Source of the DNA: Streptomyces catenulae | Lineage (GTDB): Bacteria > Actinomycetota > Actinomycetes > Streptomycetales > Streptomycetaceae | Reading direction: 5' to 3' | DNA: 64,000 bases | NCBI RefSeq assembly: GCF_000718015.1 | Contig: NZ_JODY01000008.1 | Location: forward strand, 124,001-188,000 | Program-made: the position numbers and the translations under genes | Notes under the pieces: model-generated | What the model saw: only the letters and a program-made list of their open reading frames with translations | What the model was told of the DNA's origin: nothing | Database searches by the model: none | Shown here: in pieces, positions 2,251 to 27,580 of the stretch | Numbering within the stretch: the stretch's first letter is position 1 | How the letters are laid out: the number at the start of each line of letters is the position of its first letter

Positions 2251-3750
2251 TCAGGGCCCGGACGTCCGCCGCAGCACCAGGAGTTCCGCGGCCGTACCGG
2301 ACACCGCGTACCGGGTGTGCGGATGCCGCTGCTCGGCCTCGGTGCGGACCTGCTCGGGGGTGCGGCCGTCGGACAGCTGCACCGCGACGTAGTCGGGGGC
2401 GATCCCGCGGGTGTCGCCGATCCAGAACACCCGGGTGCGGGAGACGAGCCGGGACAGCGGCCGGATGTCCGCCTCGACGCTCGCCCCGTCCGGGACGGTC
2501 GCCAGCAGCCGTTCGGCGGCGGCGACCTCCGGCGGGATGCGGTACGTCGCCGACTCGGTGAGGCGGGACAGCGGCAGCGTGGTGGTCAGCGCCAGCGCCG
2601 CGGCGAGCACCGCCGCCGGGAGCTGGTCCGCCAGCGCCCGCAGCCGGGGGCGCGGCGAACGGCCGGTCCGCTCCAGCGCGTCGACGAGGGCGAGGAAGAC
2701 CACCGGCATCAGCACCGCGTTGTAGTGCCAGTCGATGCCCCAGTAGTGCGGCTCGTGGGAGACGAACCGCCAGCCGAGCGTCGGCACCGCCGCCAGCAGC
2801 AGCGGCGAACGCAGCGCCAGCAGACCGGTGGTGGGCAGCAGCACCCACAGCAGGGTGTGCAGCGCCTCGCCCACCCCGATCGCCGGGCCCGCCGCGCCGT
2901 CGCCGCCGAGCTTGGACCAGTAGTCGTACGAGCCGGTGCCGTTGAACCCGGGGATGATCACGCCGAGGGTGACGGCGGTGGCGGCCAGCCCGAAGCCGAC
3001 CAGCGCGACGGCGAGCGGCAGCGCCTGCCGCGCCCGGACCAGCACCACCACACCGATCGCGGCGGCGGTGACCCCCAGATCCTCCTTGACCAGCACCAGC
3101 GGCGCGGCCCAGCACACCGCCGCCGTCCACCGCCCGCGCACCACCGCCTCCAGCGCGAACGCCAGCAGCGGCAGCGCGAAGGCGATCTCGTGGAAGTCGA
3201 AGTCGACGGCCTTCTGCAGCCCCCACGACAACCCGTACGCGACACCGACGGCCAGCCCCCGGGCGCGCCCCAGATACCGGGCGGCGGCGCGGGTGACCGG
3301 CACCGACGACAGCGCGAACAGCGCCGCCTGCGCCGTCAGCAGCGTCAGCGGCGAGGGCAGCAGCCGGTAGAGGGGCGCGAGCAGGATCAGCACCGGGCTG
3401 AAGTGGTCGCCCAGGATGTTGGTGCCCGGCCCCTTGAGGTCGACGATCGGCGCCCCGAGATGCGCGTAACCGCGGACCGCCTGCTCGAAGATGCCGAGGT
3501 CCCAGGAGGCGGTGCCCATCGTCAGATGGCGCAGCAGCGACAGCGTGGCGTACGCGGCGAAGAGCAGCGCCGCCAGCCACCACGGGTCGAGGCGCGGCGC
3601 CCGCCATGCGGCGAATCGGCCGCCGCGCGCGGCGGCGGGCGCCTCGCGGGGGATGTCGGGCGGCGCGGTCCGTTGCCCGGGCGGCGCCCCGGTCGCCGTG
3701 CCGGGCGTCGCGGGACCGGCGCCCGCCGCCGTCGCTGCGGCCGTGTCCAT
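2251..3750 (-). CDS. DUF2079-type polytopic membrane protein
   Basis: 499 residues from the ATG at 3750; an upstream in-frame extension would be Arg-rich non-coding sequence and would overlap the start of the divergent HNH gene. A short Ala/Pro-rich cytoplasmic tail is followed by many hydrophobic segments. The signature WDLGIFEQAVRGYAHLG, then LKGPGTNILGDHFSP with the acidic/His pair, and SHEPHYWGIDWHYN later on, mark the DUF2079 family, which has the GT-C glycosyltransferase-like fold. The likely role is transfer of a sugar from a lipid carrier on the outer face, but the substrate is unknown. The C-terminal 100 residues form a soluble domain. Neighbours give no pathway clue. Confidence 0.85.
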   Translation of the reverse strand: MDTAAATAAGAGPATPGTATGAPPGQRTAPPDIPREAPAAARGGRFAAWRAPRLDPWWLAALLFAAYATLSLLRHLTMGTASWDLGIFEQAVRGYAHLGAPIVDLKGPGTNILGDHFSPVLILLAPLYRLLPSPLTLLTAQAALFALSSVPVTRAAARYLGRARGLAVGVAYGLSWGLQKAVDFDFHEIAFALPLLAFALEAVVRGRWTAAVCWAAPLVLVKEDLGVTAAAIGVVVLVRARQALPLAVALVGFGLAATAVTLGVIIPGFNGTGSYDYWSKLGGDGAAGPAIGVGEALHTLLWVLLPTTGLLALRSPLLLAAVPTLGWRFVSHEPHYWGIDWHYNAVLMPVVFLALVDALERTGRSPRPRLRALADQLPAAVLAAALALTTTLPLSRLTESATYRIPPEVAAAERLLATVPDGASVEADIRPLSRLVSRTRVFWIGDTRGIAPDYVAVQLSDGRTPEQVRTEAEQRHPHTRYAVSGTAAELLVLRRTSGP

Positions 3751-9624: not shown

Positions 9625-10499
<875 letters not shown>

Positions 10500-20882: not shown

Positions 20883-23408
20883 TTACTCCGCCTTGAGGGC
20901 GGTGAGCATGTTCAGCTTCGCCGCGCGGCGGGCCGGCCACAGGGCGGCGACCACGCCGACCAGGGCGGCCAGGGCGAGGAAGAGACCCATCCGGCCCCAG
21001 GGCAGCACCAGTTCGTAGGTGGTGAGCGTGGCGGAGATCAGTTCACCGGCGGCCCAGCCGAAGAAGACGCCGAGACCGATGCCGAGGACGCCGCCGAAGA
21101 GCGAGATCACCAGGGACTCCAGACGGACCATCCGCCGGACGCCGGTGCGGTCCAGACCGATGGCGCGGAGCATGCCGATCTCCTGGGAGCGCTCGAAGAC
21201 CGACATGGCCAGGGTGTTGACGACGCCGAGGACGGCGACGATCACGGCCATGGCGAGCAGTGCGTAGAGCATGTTCAGCAGCAGGTTGACCGACTGGGAG
21301 ATGCCGTCGGAGACGTCCTTCTTGTCCTCGACGGTGAGGGCGGGGTTCTTGCCCAGCGCGTCGATCAGCTTCTGCTTGGTGGCGTCGGTGGCGCCGTCCT
21401 TGGTCTTGACCATGACCTTGAGGTCGGTGGCGTTCTTCTGGTGGCCGCCCAGGACGCCGTTGTCGACGACGATCTGCTGGATCATCTCGTTGCCGCGGTA
21501 GACGCCGGAGACGGTGAGCGTCTCCTTCCGGCCGTCCTCGAACGTCACCGGGACGCGGGAGCCGACCTTCCAGCCCTTCTCCTTCGCGGTGTCCTCGTCG
21601 GCGACGATGCCGCGGTCGGCGAGGTCGCCGAGGGAGCCGGAGGTGAAGTCGAGGCGGGTCAGCTTGGCGAAGTCCTTGCCGTTGACGCCGGTCAGATAGG
21701 CGGTGTGGCCGCCGATCTCGGCCTCGGAGCTGCGCATCGGGCTGAGGGCGGTGACCTCGTCGAGGCTGCCGAGCTTCTGCGCCACCTCGGGGGAGAGCGG
21801 CGTCAGACCGGCCATGGAGACGATGTAGTCGGCCTTGAGGGAGTCGACGGCCATCTTGTCGATGCCCTTCTGGACGCTGTTCCCGATCACCGTCAGACCG
21901 GTGATCAGGGTCAGGCCGACCATCAGGGCGGAGGCGGTGGCGGCGGTGCGGCGCGGGTTGCGGACCGCGTTCTGCCGGGCGAGCTTGCCGGAGATGCCGA
22001 ACGCGCGGAGCAGCGGGGCGGCCAGGCCGATGAGCGGGCGGGAGAGCAGCGGCGTCAGGACGAAGACGCCGATCAGCAGCAGCACCGCGCCCAGGCCCAG
22101 GACGGCCTTGCCGTCGCTCATGCCGGTGGCGGCCAGGACGGCGGCGATACCGGCGGCGGCGAGGAGCGCGCCGAGGGCGTTGCGGACGACCAGGGACTTG
22201 GTGGTGGCCGTGGCGTGCACGCTGTTCATCGCGGCGACCGGCGGGATCTTCGCGGCGCGGCGGCCCGGCAGCCAGGCGGCGAGGACGGTCACGCCGATGC
22301 CGACCACCAGCGAGGTGACGACGGTGGAGACGTCGACGACGAGCGGGCCGTCGGGGACGATCGCGCCGCTGCCGTTCATCAGGGCGCGCATCGCGGCGCC
22401 GATGCCGATACCGGCGGCCAGACCGGTGACGGCGGCTGCCGCGCCGACGACGAACGCCTCGATCAGCACCGAGCGGGTGACCTGGCGGCGGCTGGCGCCG
22501 ACCGCGCGCAGCAGCGCCAGTTCCTTGGTGCGCTGGGCGACCAGCATGGTGAAGGTGTTGGCGATCAGGAAGATGCCGACGAAGAGCGCGATACCGGCGA
22601 AGCCCAGCAGCGCGGTCTGCATGCTCTGCATGCTCTCGGCGATCTGGTCGGCCTCGTCGTCGGCGAGCTGCTTGCCGGTGGTGGCCTCGGCGCCCTTGGC
22701 GGGCAGCACCTTGCGGATCTGCGACTCCAGGGCGCTCTGCGAGGTGCCCGGGGCGGCCTTGACGTGGATCTCGTTGTACTTGCCGGGGGCGAGCAGCTGC
22801 TTCTGGGCGGTCGCGTTGTCGAACAGCGCGAGGCTGCCACCGGCCGAGACGGCGCCGTCGGTGGTGGTGAAGACGCCGGTCAGCCGGGGCTCGTGGACCG
22901 TTCCGTCGAAGGAGATCCGGACGGTGTCGCCGACCTTGTACCCGGCCTCGTCGGCGGTACGGGCGTCCAGGGCGATCTGGTCGGCGCCGTGCGGGGCGGT
23001 GCCGTCGCGCAGCGGGTAGCGGGCGTCCTTGCCGTCGGCGCCGGGGTAGTAGTTGCCGCCGCGGGTGGCGAAGCCGGTGCCGATCAGCTTGCCGTGGCGG
23101 TCGGCGATGGCGGTGAAGCCGGTGACGGTGCCGGTGGCCGAGGCGGCGCCGGGCACGTGGGCCGCCTTGTCGAGCAGCTTCTGGTCGAGGGCGGGGCGGG
23201 CGCCGGGCCCGGCGCCGTCGCCGGTGGGCCGGACGGCCACGTCGACGTCGGCGTAGCCCGCCTGGGAGCTGGCGCGCAGCCCGCCGGAGATGGTGGAGGT
23301 GAAGACCAGGGTGCCGGAGACGAAGGCGACGCCGAGCATGACGGCGAGGACGGTCATCAGCAGCCGGGCCTTGTGCGCGAGGACGTTGCGCAGGGCGGTA
23401 CGGAGCAT
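20883..23408 (-). CDS. ABC transporter permease (MacB/FtsX type)
   Basis: 841 residues from an ATG, the usual length for the large actinobacterial double-FtsX permeases. A first membrane span (LLMTVLAVMLGVAFVSGTLV), a large extracellular MacB-PCD domain (about 40-260), three spans around 265-400, a second pair of spans around 430-480, a second extracellular domain (about 510-700) and three C-terminal spans ending in ALWPARRAAKLNMLTALK. Such permeases do not form a channel in the classic sense; they use mechanotransmission to export peptides or lipoproteins, or to control wall enzymes. It is downstream of its ATPase (47-bp gap) on the same strand. Confidence 0.93.
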   Translation of the reverse strand: MLRTALRNVLAHKARLLMTVLAVMLGVAFVSGTLVFTSTISGGLRASSQAGYADVDVAVRPTGDGAGPGARPALDQKLLDKAAHVPGAASATGTVTGFTAIADRHGKLIGTGFATRGGNYYPGADGKDARYPLRDGTAPHGADQIALDARTADEAGYKVGDTVRISFDGTVHEPRLTGVFTTTDGAVSAGGSLALFDNATAQKQLLAPGKYNEIHVKAAPGTSQSALESQIRKVLPAKGAEATTGKQLADDEADQIAESMQSMQTALLGFAGIALFVGIFLIANTFTMLVAQRTKELALLRAVGASRRQVTRSVLIEAFVVGAAAAVTGLAAGIGIGAAMRALMNGSGAIVPDGPLVVDVSTVVTSLVVGIGVTVLAAWLPGRRAAKIPPVAAMNSVHATATTKSLVVRNALGALLAAAGIAAVLAATGMSDGKAVLGLGAVLLLIGVFVLTPLLSRPLIGLAAPLLRAFGISGKLARQNAVRNPRRTAATASALMVGLTLITGLTVIGNSVQKGIDKMAVDSLKADYIVSMAGLTPLSPEVAQKLGSLDEVTALSPMRSSEAEIGGHTAYLTGVNGKDFAKLTRLDFTSGSLGDLADRGIVADEDTAKEKGWKVGSRVPVTFEDGRKETLTVSGVYRGNEMIQQIVVDNGVLGGHQKNATDLKVMVKTKDGATDATKQKLIDALGKNPALTVEDKKDVSDGISQSVNLLLNMLYALLAMAVIVAVLGVVNTLAMSVFERSQEIGMLRAIGLDRTGVRRMVRLESLVISLFGGVLGIGLGVFFGWAAGELISATLTTYELVLPWGRMGLFLALAALVGVVAALWPARRAAKLNMLTALKAE

Positions 23409-23455: not shown

Positions 23456-24238
23456 TCAGTTGGTACGGCCCTTGGCGTCGAAGCCCTTCATGCGTTCCAG
23501 GACCAGATCGGCGGTGGGGTGGGGCATGTCGTCGACGATGCGGCCGTCGGCGAGGAAGACGACGCGGTCGGCGTAGGAGGCGGCGACCGGGTCGTGGGTG
23601 ACCATGACGACGGTCTGGCCGAGTTCGCGGACGGAGTTGCGCAGGAAGCCGAGGACCTCGGCGCCGGAGCGGGAGTCGAGGTTGCCGGTCGGCTCGTCCG
23701 CGAAGATGATCTCGGGCCGGGAGGCGAGGGCGCGGGCGACGGCGACGCGCTGCTGCTGGCCGCCGGAGAGCTGGCCGGGGCGGTGCTTGAGACGACCGCC
23801 GAGGCCGACGGTCGTCACGACGCGGTCCAGCCAGGCGCGGTCGGGCTTACGGCCCGCGATGTCCATCGGGAGGGTGATGTTCTCCAGCGCCGTCAGGGTC
23901 GGGAGCAGGTTGAACGCCTGGAAGATGAAGCCGATCTTGTCGCGGCGCAGCTGGGTGAGCTTCTTGTCCTTCAGCCCGGTCAGCTCGGTGTCCCCGATCC
24001 GGGCGCTGCCGCCGGAGATTGTGTCCAGCCCCGCCATGCAGTGCATCAGCGTCGACTTGCCGGAGCCCGAGGGGCCCATGATCGCGGTGAACTGCGCCTG
24101 GTGGAACGTGACGGAGACGGCGTCGAGGGCGACCACCCGGGTCTCACCCTCTCCGTAGACCTTGCTGAGGTCCGTCGCGCGGGCGGCCGCCGCGGTGGTG
24201 CGCGGGGCGGTGGGGGCGCCGGTGGGGATGGTGGTCAC
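23456..24238 (-). CDS. ABC transporter ATP-binding protein (LolD/MacB type)
   Basis: 260 residues from the GTG at 24238, which has GAGGAG at proper distance; a longer frame to 24298 adds nothing conserved. Walker A IMGPSGSGKSTLMHCMAGLD, Q-loop FIFQAFNLLPTLTALEN, signature LSGGQQQRVAVARALA, Walker B PEIIFADEPTGNLD and H-loop VMVTHDPVAASYAD are all intact. It powers the adjacent FtsX-type permease. The sequence does not tell the substrate; in this family it may be peptides, lipoproteins or wall-enzyme control. Confidence 0.95.
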   Translation of the reverse strand: MTTIPTGAPTAPRTTAAAARATDLSKVYGEGETRVVALDAVSVTFHQAQFTAIMGPSGSGKSTLMHCMAGLDTISGGSARIGDTELTGLKDKKLTQLRRDKIGFIFQAFNLLPTLTALENITLPMDIAGRKPDRAWLDRVVTTVGLGGRLKHRPGQLSGGQQQRVAVARALASRPEIIFADEPTGNLDSRSGAEVLGFLRNSVRELGQTVVMVTHDPVAASYADRVVFLADGRIVDDMPHPTADLVLERMKGFDAKGRTN

Positions 24239-24739
24239 GGAAGCGTGCTCCTCGTCGAAACGGTGCGGCGGGACGGCCGCGGCTGGGGACCTTTCCATCG
24301 TCGGCGTGCGGAGCCCCCCGGAACGTCAGCCCCGACGCCCGTCCTGGACCCGACCTGGGGCGTATCGGGCACCACGGCCGTCATCCCTGGGGATGAGGGG
24401 CGCCCCTGAGACGGCCGGGCGCGCGGGGGGCGGGAGGGGCGCGGGGCGGTCCGGGGGCCGGGTGTCCGGCCCGGTGGGATTCCTGCCGGAGTGTCGGCCG
24501 AGCACATATCGGGGCGGGTTGGCGAGGCGGTACGGCGACTTTCCGTCATTTCGGGGCCCGAACGTGTTTCAGGACGTTACGCCGGAGGTGCGCCACAGGC
24601 ATGTGACAACAGCCCGCGGTGGTGGCTGACGCACCCTCAGTTGCCAATAAAATAAGACAACCTCGGGATGAGCGGCCGGGGGTCAGGTGGCCTGCGGGCT
24701 ACGCTCGTGCTGCCTCTGTGGGGGCATGGGGGAGTCCAC
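24239..24739. promoter_or_regulatory. Gene-free region with ABC promoter (leftward) and bldA promoter (rightward)
   Basis: No convincing gene. An AT-rich element GTTG-CCAATAAAATAAGA-CAAC (24640-24661) is striking in 73% GC DNA. A candidate bldA -10, TACGCT, is at 24700-24705, which would start transcription near 24712 and leave a leader of about 28 nt to be trimmed. The -35 is not clear. The AT tract lies 50-66 bp before that start, the position of an UP-like element; this is an inference. Confidence 0.45.
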
Positions 24740-24821
24740 GCCCGGATGGTGGAATGCAGACACGGCGAGCTTAAACCTCGCTGGCCTTCGGGCCGTGCCG
24801 GTTCAAGTCCGGCTCCGGGCA
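24740..24821 (+). tRNA. bldA: tRNA-Leu(UAA), bldA
   Basis: The full class II cloverleaf is present. The acceptor stem GCCCGGA (24740-24746) pairs with TCCGGGC (24814-24820) before discriminator A. The anticodon stem GCGAG/CTCGC encloses the loop CTTAAAC, so the anticodon is TAA (24772-24774). A long variable arm follows, then the TPsiC arm with GGTTCAAGTCC. CCA is not encoded. This is the only tRNA that decodes the rare UUA codon in Streptomyces; bldA mutants fail to form aerial hyphae and many antibiotics, because TTA codons occur mainly in regulators and accessory genes. By eye I found no in-frame TTA in the annotated genes of this window. Confidence 0.97.
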
Positions 24822-25476
24822 CTTCCGGCAATCGGCCGCCCGTTCCGAAGGGTTTTCCCGGACCTTGCGCCGTGCCGCGCATACCCTGACACATCCCGTT
24901 CACACTCCGCCCCGGCGGAGCCTGTCCGCGCCCGCCCGCCGCCGCGTTCTCCCTGCCCGGACGCCCGCCGCCCGGCCGGACCGCCGGGCGCGCCGCACCG
25001 CCCACCCGGACGGACCGGCACCGCTTCCGGAGAAATGCGGCGGACGATTGCGGGGCGGCTCCCTTCCTTCCCGCGGCCCATTCCGTGACCGTACGAATCC
25101 GTAGGGTCACGCGGTGGTGTGCGGGCTTTGTGGCGGCGCCGCGAGCCGGTGCCGGATAACGGGCCGGAGGCCGTGTGCGGGTGATTTCCCGGAGGCGTTC
25201 CGCGGTATTTCGTATTCGCTCGTTCCGGGGAATTCGCCGTCCCGCCGACCGGATTTCGTCCGCCCGTGGAGAAGCGCGGCGCGCCTCCGGGCGGACGGGT
25301 CCGGCGGCGCCGTCGCTCCGGGCGGCGGCGGGGTGCGCGGTGCCCCGAATTCCGGGCGGGCGGCCCATCCGGGGTGCGGTCCGTGCGCCGGTCGCCGGGG
25401 TCCCGGAAGTCGCGCCTGCTCTGCGTATGGTGAGCTTTTGTCGGATTTGAGCGTATTGAGGATGGTGGCTTACGGC
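24822..25476. other. Gene-free region after bldA with a 28-bp palindrome
   Basis: About 650 bp without a gene that I can support; open frames here are Arg/Pro-rich and lack ribosome-binding sites. At 25084-25111 CGTGACC-G-TACG-N4-CGTA-G-GGTCACG forms an interrupted palindrome with arms of 7 and 4 bp. No clear terminator for bldA is visible. The base composition is less GC-biased at 25,080-25,260 than in flanking genes. Confidence 0.5.
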
Positions 25477-26568
25477 ATGGAACTCTCCTTCCTGCGTCCC
25501 CTCTACACGGAGGGAGCCCCGGTCGCCTCGGTGTACCTCGACACCACACGCGCGGTCCCGGACGCGGACGAGCGGATCGCCACCCGCTGGCGGACCGCAC
25601 GCCGCACGCTGGCCGAACAGGGCGCGGACGACGCGACGCTCGAAGCGCTGGACGCCACCGTCGGCGGCGTGCCCGACCTGTCCGGACCCCAGGGCGAGGC
25701 GCTGTTCGCCGCCGACGGGCGACTCCTCGGCGCCTTCACCCTGACCGAGCCGCCCGCCGCCGACCGGGCGCTCTGGACGCCGGTGCCCGACCCGCTGCTG
25801 CTCGCCTTCGACCGCGACCACCAGGTGCCGCACGTGCTCGTCGCGGTCGACCGGGAGGGCGCCGACGTCGAGGGGTACCCGGCCGCCGCCCACGAACCGG
25901 CCTTCCGGCGGACCTTCAACGGCAGCACCCTGCACATCACCCGCGTCCGCGCCGGTGCCGAGGCGCAGGCGTCGTTCCACCGGCGCACCGTCAACGTCTG
26001 GTCCGAGAACACCGAGCAGGCGGCGCAGGACGTCCGCGACGCCGTCGACGCGGTGGACGCCGAGGTCATCCTGGTCGCCGGGGACCCGAAGGCGTTCGGA
26101 CTGCTGCGGGATCACCTCGGGCCGCTGGCGGAGCGGTTGGTGAAGGTGGGCGGTGGCCGCACCGACGCGCAGGCCCGGGCGGCGCTGCGGGAGGCGGCCG
26201 ACACCGCGCTCCACGAGATTTCGGCCGAGTCCCACCGGGACGCCTTGCGGCAACTGGAGAGCGCACTCGACGGCGATCAGGCCCTCCAGGGCATCCCGGC
26301 GGTGAAGGAGGCGCTCGCCGAGGGCCGGGTGGACACCCTCTACATGGCGCCGCCCACGGCCACCCAGGACGTCCCGCTCTTCACCTCGGAGCGCAACCCC
26401 CGCGCCCTGGCCACCGATCGGGCGGCCCTCGGCGACGACCCGACGGTGTTCGAGGCGCCCGCGCCGCTCCTGCTGCTGCGCGCCGCGGTCCTCGGCGACG
26501 CGTCCTTCAGCGAGATCCAGCCGCCGACCCGGTGCACCGACGGCGTCGCCGCCCTGCTGCGCTACTGA
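25477..26568 (+). CDS. baeRF (eRF1-like/Vms1-type) family protein, Rv2629-like
   Basis: 363 residues from the ATG at 25477; an ATG at 25462 adds five residues but has its GAGG too close. The start MELSFLRPLY and ASVYLDTTRAVPDADERIATRWRTAR are typical of the actinobacterial Rv2629-type family. The middle (ALFAADGRLLGAFTL..., VPHVLVAVDREGADV) is the eRF1 domain 2-like region, and the end (VDTLYMAPP) is a domain 3-like module. The family is related to archaeal/eukaryotic release factors and to Vms1 peptidyl-tRNA hydrolases, suggesting a role in ribosome rescue or dormancy. No GGQ motif is visible. It is the first gene after bldA. Confidence 0.83.
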   Translation: MELSFLRPLYTEGAPVASVYLDTTRAVPDADERIATRWRTARRTLAEQGADDATLEALDATVGGVPDLSGPQGEALFAADGRLLGAFTLTEPPAADRALWTPVPDPLLLAFDRDHQVPHVLVAVDREGADVEGYPAAAHEPAFRRTFNGSTLHITRVRAGAEAQASFHRRTVNVWSENTEQAAQDVRDAVDAVDAEVILVAGDPKAFGLLRDHLGPLAERLVKVGGGRTDAQARAALREAADTALHEISAESHRDALRQLESALDGDQALQGIPAVKEALAEGRVDTLYMAPPTATQDVPLFTSERNPRALATDRAALGDDPTVFEAPAPLLLLRAAVLGDASFSEIQPPTRCTDGVAALLRY

Positions 26569-26752: not shown

Positions 26753-27580
26753 ATGAGGAGCAGCAACCCGGTCTTCTCGCGACGGGGGTTCAGCCGCGAC
26801 ACCGGCTACGCGGGCTTCAACGCGCCGCCGCAGGCCGGGGGCGTCGGAGCCGATCCGTACGCCGGGGCCAACCCGTACGCGCAGACCGCCACCCAGGCAC
26901 CGCAGTACACGCCGCAGACCCGCCCGATGACGATGGACGACGTCGTCGTCCGCACGGCGTTCACCCTCGGCACGGTCATCGTCGGCGCCGTCGTCGGCTG
27001 GCTGTACCTGTCGGACAAGATCGGCTTCGCGATCGGTGCCGGTATCGCCGCGATGGTGCTGGGCTTCATCCAGTCCTTCAAGCGGAAGCCGTCGCCGGCG
27101 CTGATCCTGGGGTACGCGGCGCTGGAGGGGCTCTTCCTCGGCGCGCTCAGCGGCAACCTCAACGACCTGCCGAAGATGAACGGCGCGCCGATGCAGGCGG
27201 TGCTGGGCACGATGGCGGTCTTCGTCGCGATGCTCATCGCCTACAAGACGCGGATCGTGCGGGTCACCGCCCGCTTCACCCGCTTCCTGATGATCGCGAC
27301 GCTGGGCTTCGTACTGCTGTCGCTGGTCAACGTCCTGTTCATGGCGTTCGGCGGCGGTGACGGCCTCGGCTTCCGCAGCGGCGGTCTCGGCATCGTCTTC
27401 GGTCTGGTCGGTGTCGTCCTCGGCGCGCTGTTCCTGGCGCTGGACTTCAAGCAGGTCGAGGACGGCATCGCCTACGGCGCCCCGCGGGAGGAGTCCTGGC
27501 TGGCCGCGTTCGGCCTGACCACCACGCTGGTGTGGATCTACATGGAGATGCTGCGGCTGATCTCGATCCTGCGCGATTGA
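26753..27580 (+). CDS. Bax inhibitor-1 / YccA-like membrane protein
   Basis: 275 residues from the ATG at 26753 with GGAGGAGTGAGG upstream. An N-terminal disordered tail rich in Gly/Ala/Pro/Tyr (to about 60) is followed by seven hydrophobic segments (TAFTLGTVIVGAVVGWLYL, IGAGIAAMVLGFI, LILGYAALEGLFLGALSG, AVLGTMAVFVAMLIAY, FLMIATLGFVLLSLVNVLF, IVFGLVGVVLGALFLALDF, AAFGLTTTLVWIYMEMLRLISIL). The DFKQVEDGI and LVWIYMEMLRLI blocks are the family's C-terminal signature; the Asp residues sense pH and gate ions in studied relatives. Function in Streptomyces is unknown. Confidence 0.9.
   Translation: MRSSNPVFSRRGFSRDTGYAGFNAPPQAGGVGADPYAGANPYAQTATQAPQYTPQTRPMTMDDVVVRTAFTLGTVIVGAVVGWLYLSDKIGFAIGAGIAAMVLGFIQSFKRKPSPALILGYAALEGLFLGALSGNLNDLPKMNGAPMQAVLGTMAVFVAMLIAYKTRIVRVTARFTRFLMIATLGFVLLSLVNVLFMAFGGGDGLGFRSGGLGIVFGLVGVVLGALFLALDFKQVEDGIAYGAPREESWLAAFGLTTTLVWIYMEMLRLISILRD

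Follow-up and report, generated by a model that had tools for sequence, protein, structure and literature searches.

Control by a rare tRNA has its textbook case in bldA, and the 64 kb stretch of Streptomyces DNA analysed here (64,000 nucleotides, hereafter the window) raises the question of whether its tRNA gene is the bldA of this strain, with regulatory weight, or a UAA tRNA of some other role or origin. The gene lies as follows:

24740 to 24821, + strand: bldA, class II tRNA-Leu(UAA), anticodon TAA at 24772-24774, identified by ARAGORN, its fold and a tRNA family match

ARAGORN, run on the whole window, reports this as the sole tRNA, a tRNA-Leu with the anticodon taa at 24740-24822 (+). 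Its end is one base past that of the tRNA body, since pairing places the discriminator at A24821, which is where the initial annotation had ended the gene. The acceptor stem pairs GCCCGGA with TCCGGGC and the anticodon loop CTTAAAC occupies 24770-24776; ARAGORN and the minimum-energy fold agree on the loop, the anticodon TAA and the complete class II structure that had been read from the letters. The fold itself is a cloverleaf with a four-pair variable stem at -41.7 kcal/mol, compared with -31.9 +/- 3.2 kcal/mol for shuffled sequences (z -3.05), of which one in 200 was equally good. As A24821 is followed by CTT, CCA is not encoded. A scan of the window with the Rfam tRNA model at the gathering threshold did not return bldA among its matches, and against the strain's own genome the same model scores it at 51.1 bits, above the cut-off.

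The own assembly is a draft of 7,045,102 bases in 90 contigs with an estimated completeness of 100%, and it contains 67 matches to the tRNA family. ARAGORN was run on 31 loci and 31 stretches covering these matches, and a recount by position gave 67 distinct genes. The anticodon TAA occurs in one of these 67 tRNA genes from 90 contigs, among leucine anticodons distributed as cag 1, gag 2, tag 1, caa 1 and taa 1, and the bldA DNA used as a query against the assembly matches only itself. A second UAA tRNA-Leu was thus not found in the draft assembly, which bears out the expected uniqueness. The sole leucine tRNA with the anticodon CAA that was found in the genome (L093:61-136, C7:19290-19364) has 76 bases and lacks a long variable arm; a pattern search for a Leu(CAA) of class II came back empty. 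Of 41 genus genomes searched, counting this one, 19 have relatives of the 76-base tRNA, 13 of them full-length.

A regulatory role depends on how rarely UUA is used. As had been read by eye, no in-frame TTA occurs in the 52 called genes of the window (16,835 codons); the genes were called by a rough procedure of our own, which could overlook atypical genes of low GC, and the zero is unchanged with a gene caller made neutral to TTA. Across twenty stretches of 20 kb each from this genome, 5 of 316 genes contain TTA, adpA being one of the five; the stretch with adpA was picked on purpose, and leaving it out gives 4 of 299. Because only 5/316 sampled genes have a TTA, zero of 52 is expected and is no sign of a protected core (P = 0.44 for no TTA gene in 52 at this rate; Fisher p = 1). 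The suggestion that the absence marks a conserved core outside bldA control therefore gains nothing from the count, which is uninformative on this point. The adpA of this genome lies 0.7 kb before tRNA-His and encodes a PfpI domain (36-124) and an AraC-type HTH domain (189-267). Its in-frame TTA falls between the two domains, as codon 160 of a called frame whose start is probably late, and a TTA at this place is a published feature of streptomycete adpA according to the accessible part of PMC4255298.

These counts bear on the view that the gene is a housekeeping UUA tRNA only, without regulatory weight in this strain, which we consider very improbable: the sampled TTA rate is not zero (5/316 genes) and S. 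coelicolor bldA is reported to have a transcript level comparable to certain other tRNAs (PMC4681348, in the part available), but a tRNA used in translation at large should have far more codons to read than the 0 TTA in 16,835 window codons and 5 in 106,753 elsewhere, and adpA keeps its interdomain TTA.

The tRNA is widely conserved within the genus. Used as a query, it has a match in 193 of 199 same-genus genomes, and a plasmid-type tRNA has one in 387 of 392 (a set that contains the 199). Loss of bldA in some species was considered for the six of 199 genomes without a match and rejected: G135 and G113 have a divergent copy, the contig of G139 stops 0.2-0.3 kb beyond the start of the ABC gene, and G130 has a run of N roughly at the expected place. 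G030 and G168 gave no bldA match; a pattern search was also empty in 5/5 genomes, which is a weak negative because the pattern also missed G113, which has a copy. The loci compared in the following are 69 bldA loci that were taken from the best matches and are therefore not a random sample. Among them, CCA is encoded in 31, absent in 37 and unreadable by the pattern used in one.

Two further sequences were observed in passing. On contig C24 of G148 (L170, near 9866-9920), the 3' half of a bldA-like tRNA is present but no 5' half that matches it, next to genes that by eye resemble CRISPR-Cas and HTH/ATPase genes, and this is probably a decayed extra copy. In Streptomyces tibetensis (L300), bldA at 3266-3350 is followed 317 bases behind by a second tRNA (3668-3744), which ARAGORN reads as Leu with the anticodon taa and which has a short variable arm.

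The surroundings of the gene comprise the following features:

20883 to 23408, - strand: FtsX/MacB-type permease (gene call)

23456 to 24238, - strand: ABC transporter ATPase, the divergent neighbour conserved beside bldA (gene call, relatives)

24626 to 24653, + strand: candidate bldA promoter CTGACG-16-TAAAAT (consensus match and conservation)

24645 to 24661, + strand: CAATAAAATAAGACAAC, core of the conserved upstream block, 78 bases before the tRNA (alignment, 17-mer scan)

25477 to 26568, + strand: gene for a baeRF family 2 protein, with bldA on one side and BaxI on the other, a position in which relatives were not found to have it

26753 to 27580, + strand: Bax inhibitor-1-like membrane protein (BaxI), next 3' of bldA in many relatives

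The ABC ATPase gene, which is divergent from bldA and whose partner is probably the FtsX/MacB-type permease, adjoins bldA in 66 of the 69 loci, which represent 68 distinct places. When 70 sequences (the window and the 69) are aligned, a strongly conserved block stands out at about 24626-24662, with CTGA, CCCTCA and CAATAAAATAAGACAAC in it. With both the ABC neighbour and the upstream block kept, the position of bldA on the chromosome is orthologous. A consensus scan finds the promoter-like pair CTGACG-16-TAAAAT in this block, compared with a mean of 0.0 in shuffles, and by its sequence the pair is probably the bldA promoter. A search with BldD and AdpA consensus sequences found no such site near bldA, and over the window it gave about as many matches as expected by chance. 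PMC4255298, in the part that is accessible, reports that BldD has a target in bldA and that AdpA activates the gene.

The 17-mer core of the block was found in at least 118 loci of public genome contigs; 80 of these carry names, and 76 of the 80 are Streptomyces. Among the matches listed, 105 of 118 have a tRNA-Leu(UAA) on the same strand, 62-118 bases 3' of the 17-mer. Of the 13 listed loci that lack a tRNA, nine have 32-47% GC, and the four named ones among these nine come from other bacteria; the remaining four have 67-70% GC, and there the motif is no more than about 200 bases from the locus end. Over the 18 kb of the window around bldA, the best match among these at least 118 loci is L328 (83.1%), followed by L288 from Streptomyces violens (80.8% over 7.2 kb aligned).

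The downstream side of bldA is a variable spot between strains. BaxI lies no more than 1.5 kb downstream of bldA in 30 of the 69 loci; in 17 longer downstream stretches from relatives it is found 0.1 to 17 kb from bldA in 15 and not found in two. A general link between bldA and baeRF, a release-factor-like protein, was rejected, as baeRF is not beside bldA in relatives: it occurs within 1.5 kb of bldA in 0 of 69 other loci and in none of the 118 listed public 17-mer loci of up to 8 kb. At E <= 1e-60, no baeRF relative was found in 60 other same-genus genomes; distant ones (29-31% identity) lie elsewhere in four of nine genomes searched at E <= 1e-20. The use of bldA as an integration site was likewise dropped after a repeat search gave no support, with no direct 14-base repeat of bldA at any other place on the window's + strand and, in the 17 downstream stretches, a single inverted match to it of 14 bases. 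Elsewhere in the window, a c-di-AMP riboswitch (ydaO/yuaA leader, 72 bits) is present at 9657-9824, before a gene called at 9828-10499.

That the tRNA belongs to a mobile element, or is a decayed copy instead of chromosomal bldA, is already contradicted, for although Streptomyces plasmids do carry UAA tRNA copies, some of them decayed, and the downstream side of bldA varies among strains, the stems here are fully paired, ten other genomes share the identical sequence (an 83-mer), the ABC neighbour and the upstream block are conserved, and the window's own downstream genes recur in the same order farther on in most of the 17 stretches from relatives.

The window tRNA is Streptomyces bldA, a gene already known, and the initial annotation was right to name it so. 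Its anticodon and fold, the lack of a second UAA tRNA in the draft genome, its orthology within the genus, the conserved upstream element and an adpA with an interdomain TTA were all observed directly. As a whole, the best explanation, of which we are all but sure, combines this gene with a probable upstream promoter, a limiting supply of UUA tRNA and the known bldA-AdpA control. Transcription would start from the promoter about 90-115 bases upstream and the precursor would be trimmed. CCA, as it is not encoded, would be added after transcription, and the mature tRNA would bring leucine to UUA codons. Since no other UAA tRNA was found and UUA codons are very scarce, the few TTA genes can be limited by the supply of this tRNA; adpA is presumably the foremost of them, and through the known bldA-AdpA control the supply would act on aerial growth and antibiotic production. 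For charging, developmental timing and phenotype, this model draws on the literature, on which loss of bldA would leave the strain able to grow but make it bald and antibiotic-deficient.

The comparison with S. coelicolor bldA rests on published descriptions, which in the parts available give it as a tRNA-Leu for UUA and as the only UUA tRNA (PMC4255298, PMC4681348, PMC2000904). The two systems share, on these accounts, the anticodon UAA, the status of only UUA tRNA and an adpA with an interdomain TTA. They differ at the 3' end, where CCA is described as encoded in S. coelicolor (PMC4681348, accessible part) whereas CTT follows A24821 here.

A search with the bldA region also returned related tRNAs on Streptomyces plasmids, in 13 of the 29 records matched. 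With the plasmid tRNA as the query, a UAA tRNA or a remnant of one was found at 17 places in 14 plasmid records, all from Streptomyces, and 15 of the 17 places, covering all 14 records, were examined. ARAGORN calls a tRNA-Leu(UAA) in 13 of these 15 loci, and L217 and L219 have remnants, the tRNA of L217 being degenerate. In 10 of the 15, a full-length gene annotated as a ScbR-family or TetR-family regulator lies just 5' on the same strand; L212, L213, L218, L219 and L221 are without one upstream of the tRNA, and in two plasmid records only a receptor fragment precedes the tRNA. From the stop of the receptor gene to the start of the tRNA there are 8, 10, 24, 26, 26, 26, 27 and 35 bases in eight of the ten loci, while in L220 the copy behind the regulator gene is broken and the ARAGORN call is 322 bases away. 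In all ten, an ATPase gene precedes the receptor gene and a divergent gene is present as well, with an HTH annotation in nine; the two genes of L061 are HATPase_c_2 and a MmyB-like regulator. In 9 of the 15 loci the annotation places a type III polyketide synthase-like gene (PhlD) downstream. The receptor protein used as a query is found in 15 plasmid records, three of them without a tRNA behind it.

The accessory tRNA-Leu(UAA) stands directly behind a scbR-type gene in L061 (5353-6085), L062, L063, L211, L214, L215, L216, L222 and L168, where the module also comprises an ATPase gene, a divergent gene for a regulator and, in many cases, PhlD. A contig of G203 has the same order of receptor and tRNA, 22 bases apart, with the receptor recognised by eye from its sequence, and the extra UAA tRNA of G010 is without a scbR-type neighbour among the adjacent genes printed. 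Plasmid pSITFR-21a (L218) has two ARAGORN calls of tRNA-Leu(UAA), at 1333-1407 and 3001-3085, near a SpoIIE phosphatase gene and without an annotated scbR beside them.

The integrity of the accessory copies was assessed in an alignment of 13 UAA tRNAs, comprising the window tRNA, those of eight plasmid records, those of the G203 and G010 contigs and two divergent chromosomal ones; L212, L213, L217, L219, L220, L221 and L222 were left out as damaged-looking or repeated. Nine of the 25 predicted pairs show at least one both-sided change that keeps the pair, of which those at columns 1-85, 4-82 and 65-75 rest on one plasmid copy each and others on G010 or chromosomal copies. One mismatched pair is present in six of the ten aligned accessory copies (L061, L062, L215, L216, L218, L169) and three in L168; L063, L211, L214, the window tRNA and the two divergent chromosomal ones have none. 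Some accessory copies therefore look intact, and several slightly or clearly decayed.

Palindromes such as CAAACAGGCAGACCTGCCTGTTTC lie before the ATPase gene of L061, with related ones in other loci, and we take them to resemble butyrolactone-receptor sites. This leads to a tentative reading, one that we would call possible rather than probable, in which the ATPase gene, the gene of the ScbR-type gamma-butyrolactone receptor and, in last place, the tRNA-Leu(UAA) form an operon on large Streptomyces plasmids, a mobile second bldA with a hormone-released supply of UUA tRNA. The receptor would repress its own operon via the upstream palindromes and the hormone would release this repression. A precedent for an accessory tRNA that alters antibiotic output in Streptomyces is tRNA-Asp-AUC of streptomycetes (PMC9262613, in the part available), which differs from the plasmid UAA tRNAs in amino acid and codon and is a new anticodon species, not an extra bldA. 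A literature search, with most subscription papers outside its reach, did not find a plasmid-borne second bldA described.

The idea that plasmids carry a UAA tRNA owing to TTA-rich genes is not supported: among the genes called in 50 kb of each plasmid, 5 of 98 contain TTA on four tRNA-bearing plasmids and 8 of 150 on four that lack the tRNA (p = 1), a weak test because the caller, trained on this chromosome, finds only 43 to 88% of the annotated gene number. Taken together, the Streptomyces plasmid stretches (L227-L234) have TTA in 13 of 248 called genes, while the sample from the strain's own genome gave 5 of 316 (p = 0.016), a mere hint of more TTA on plasmids that comes from different strains and an imperfect gene caller.

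For the chromosomal gene, these results confirm the presence, the uniqueness and the adpA target of bldA for one more Streptomyces. To our knowledge, bldA is usually taken as a strain's only UUA tRNA. Some plasmids add another, several of them right behind a hormone-receptor-like gene, and this may matter more than the window gene. If the operon reading is true, a quorum signal would govern the supply of UUA tRNA directly, outside the AdpA-bldA loop of the chromosome, and plasmid-bearing strains may depart from the usual bldA rules.
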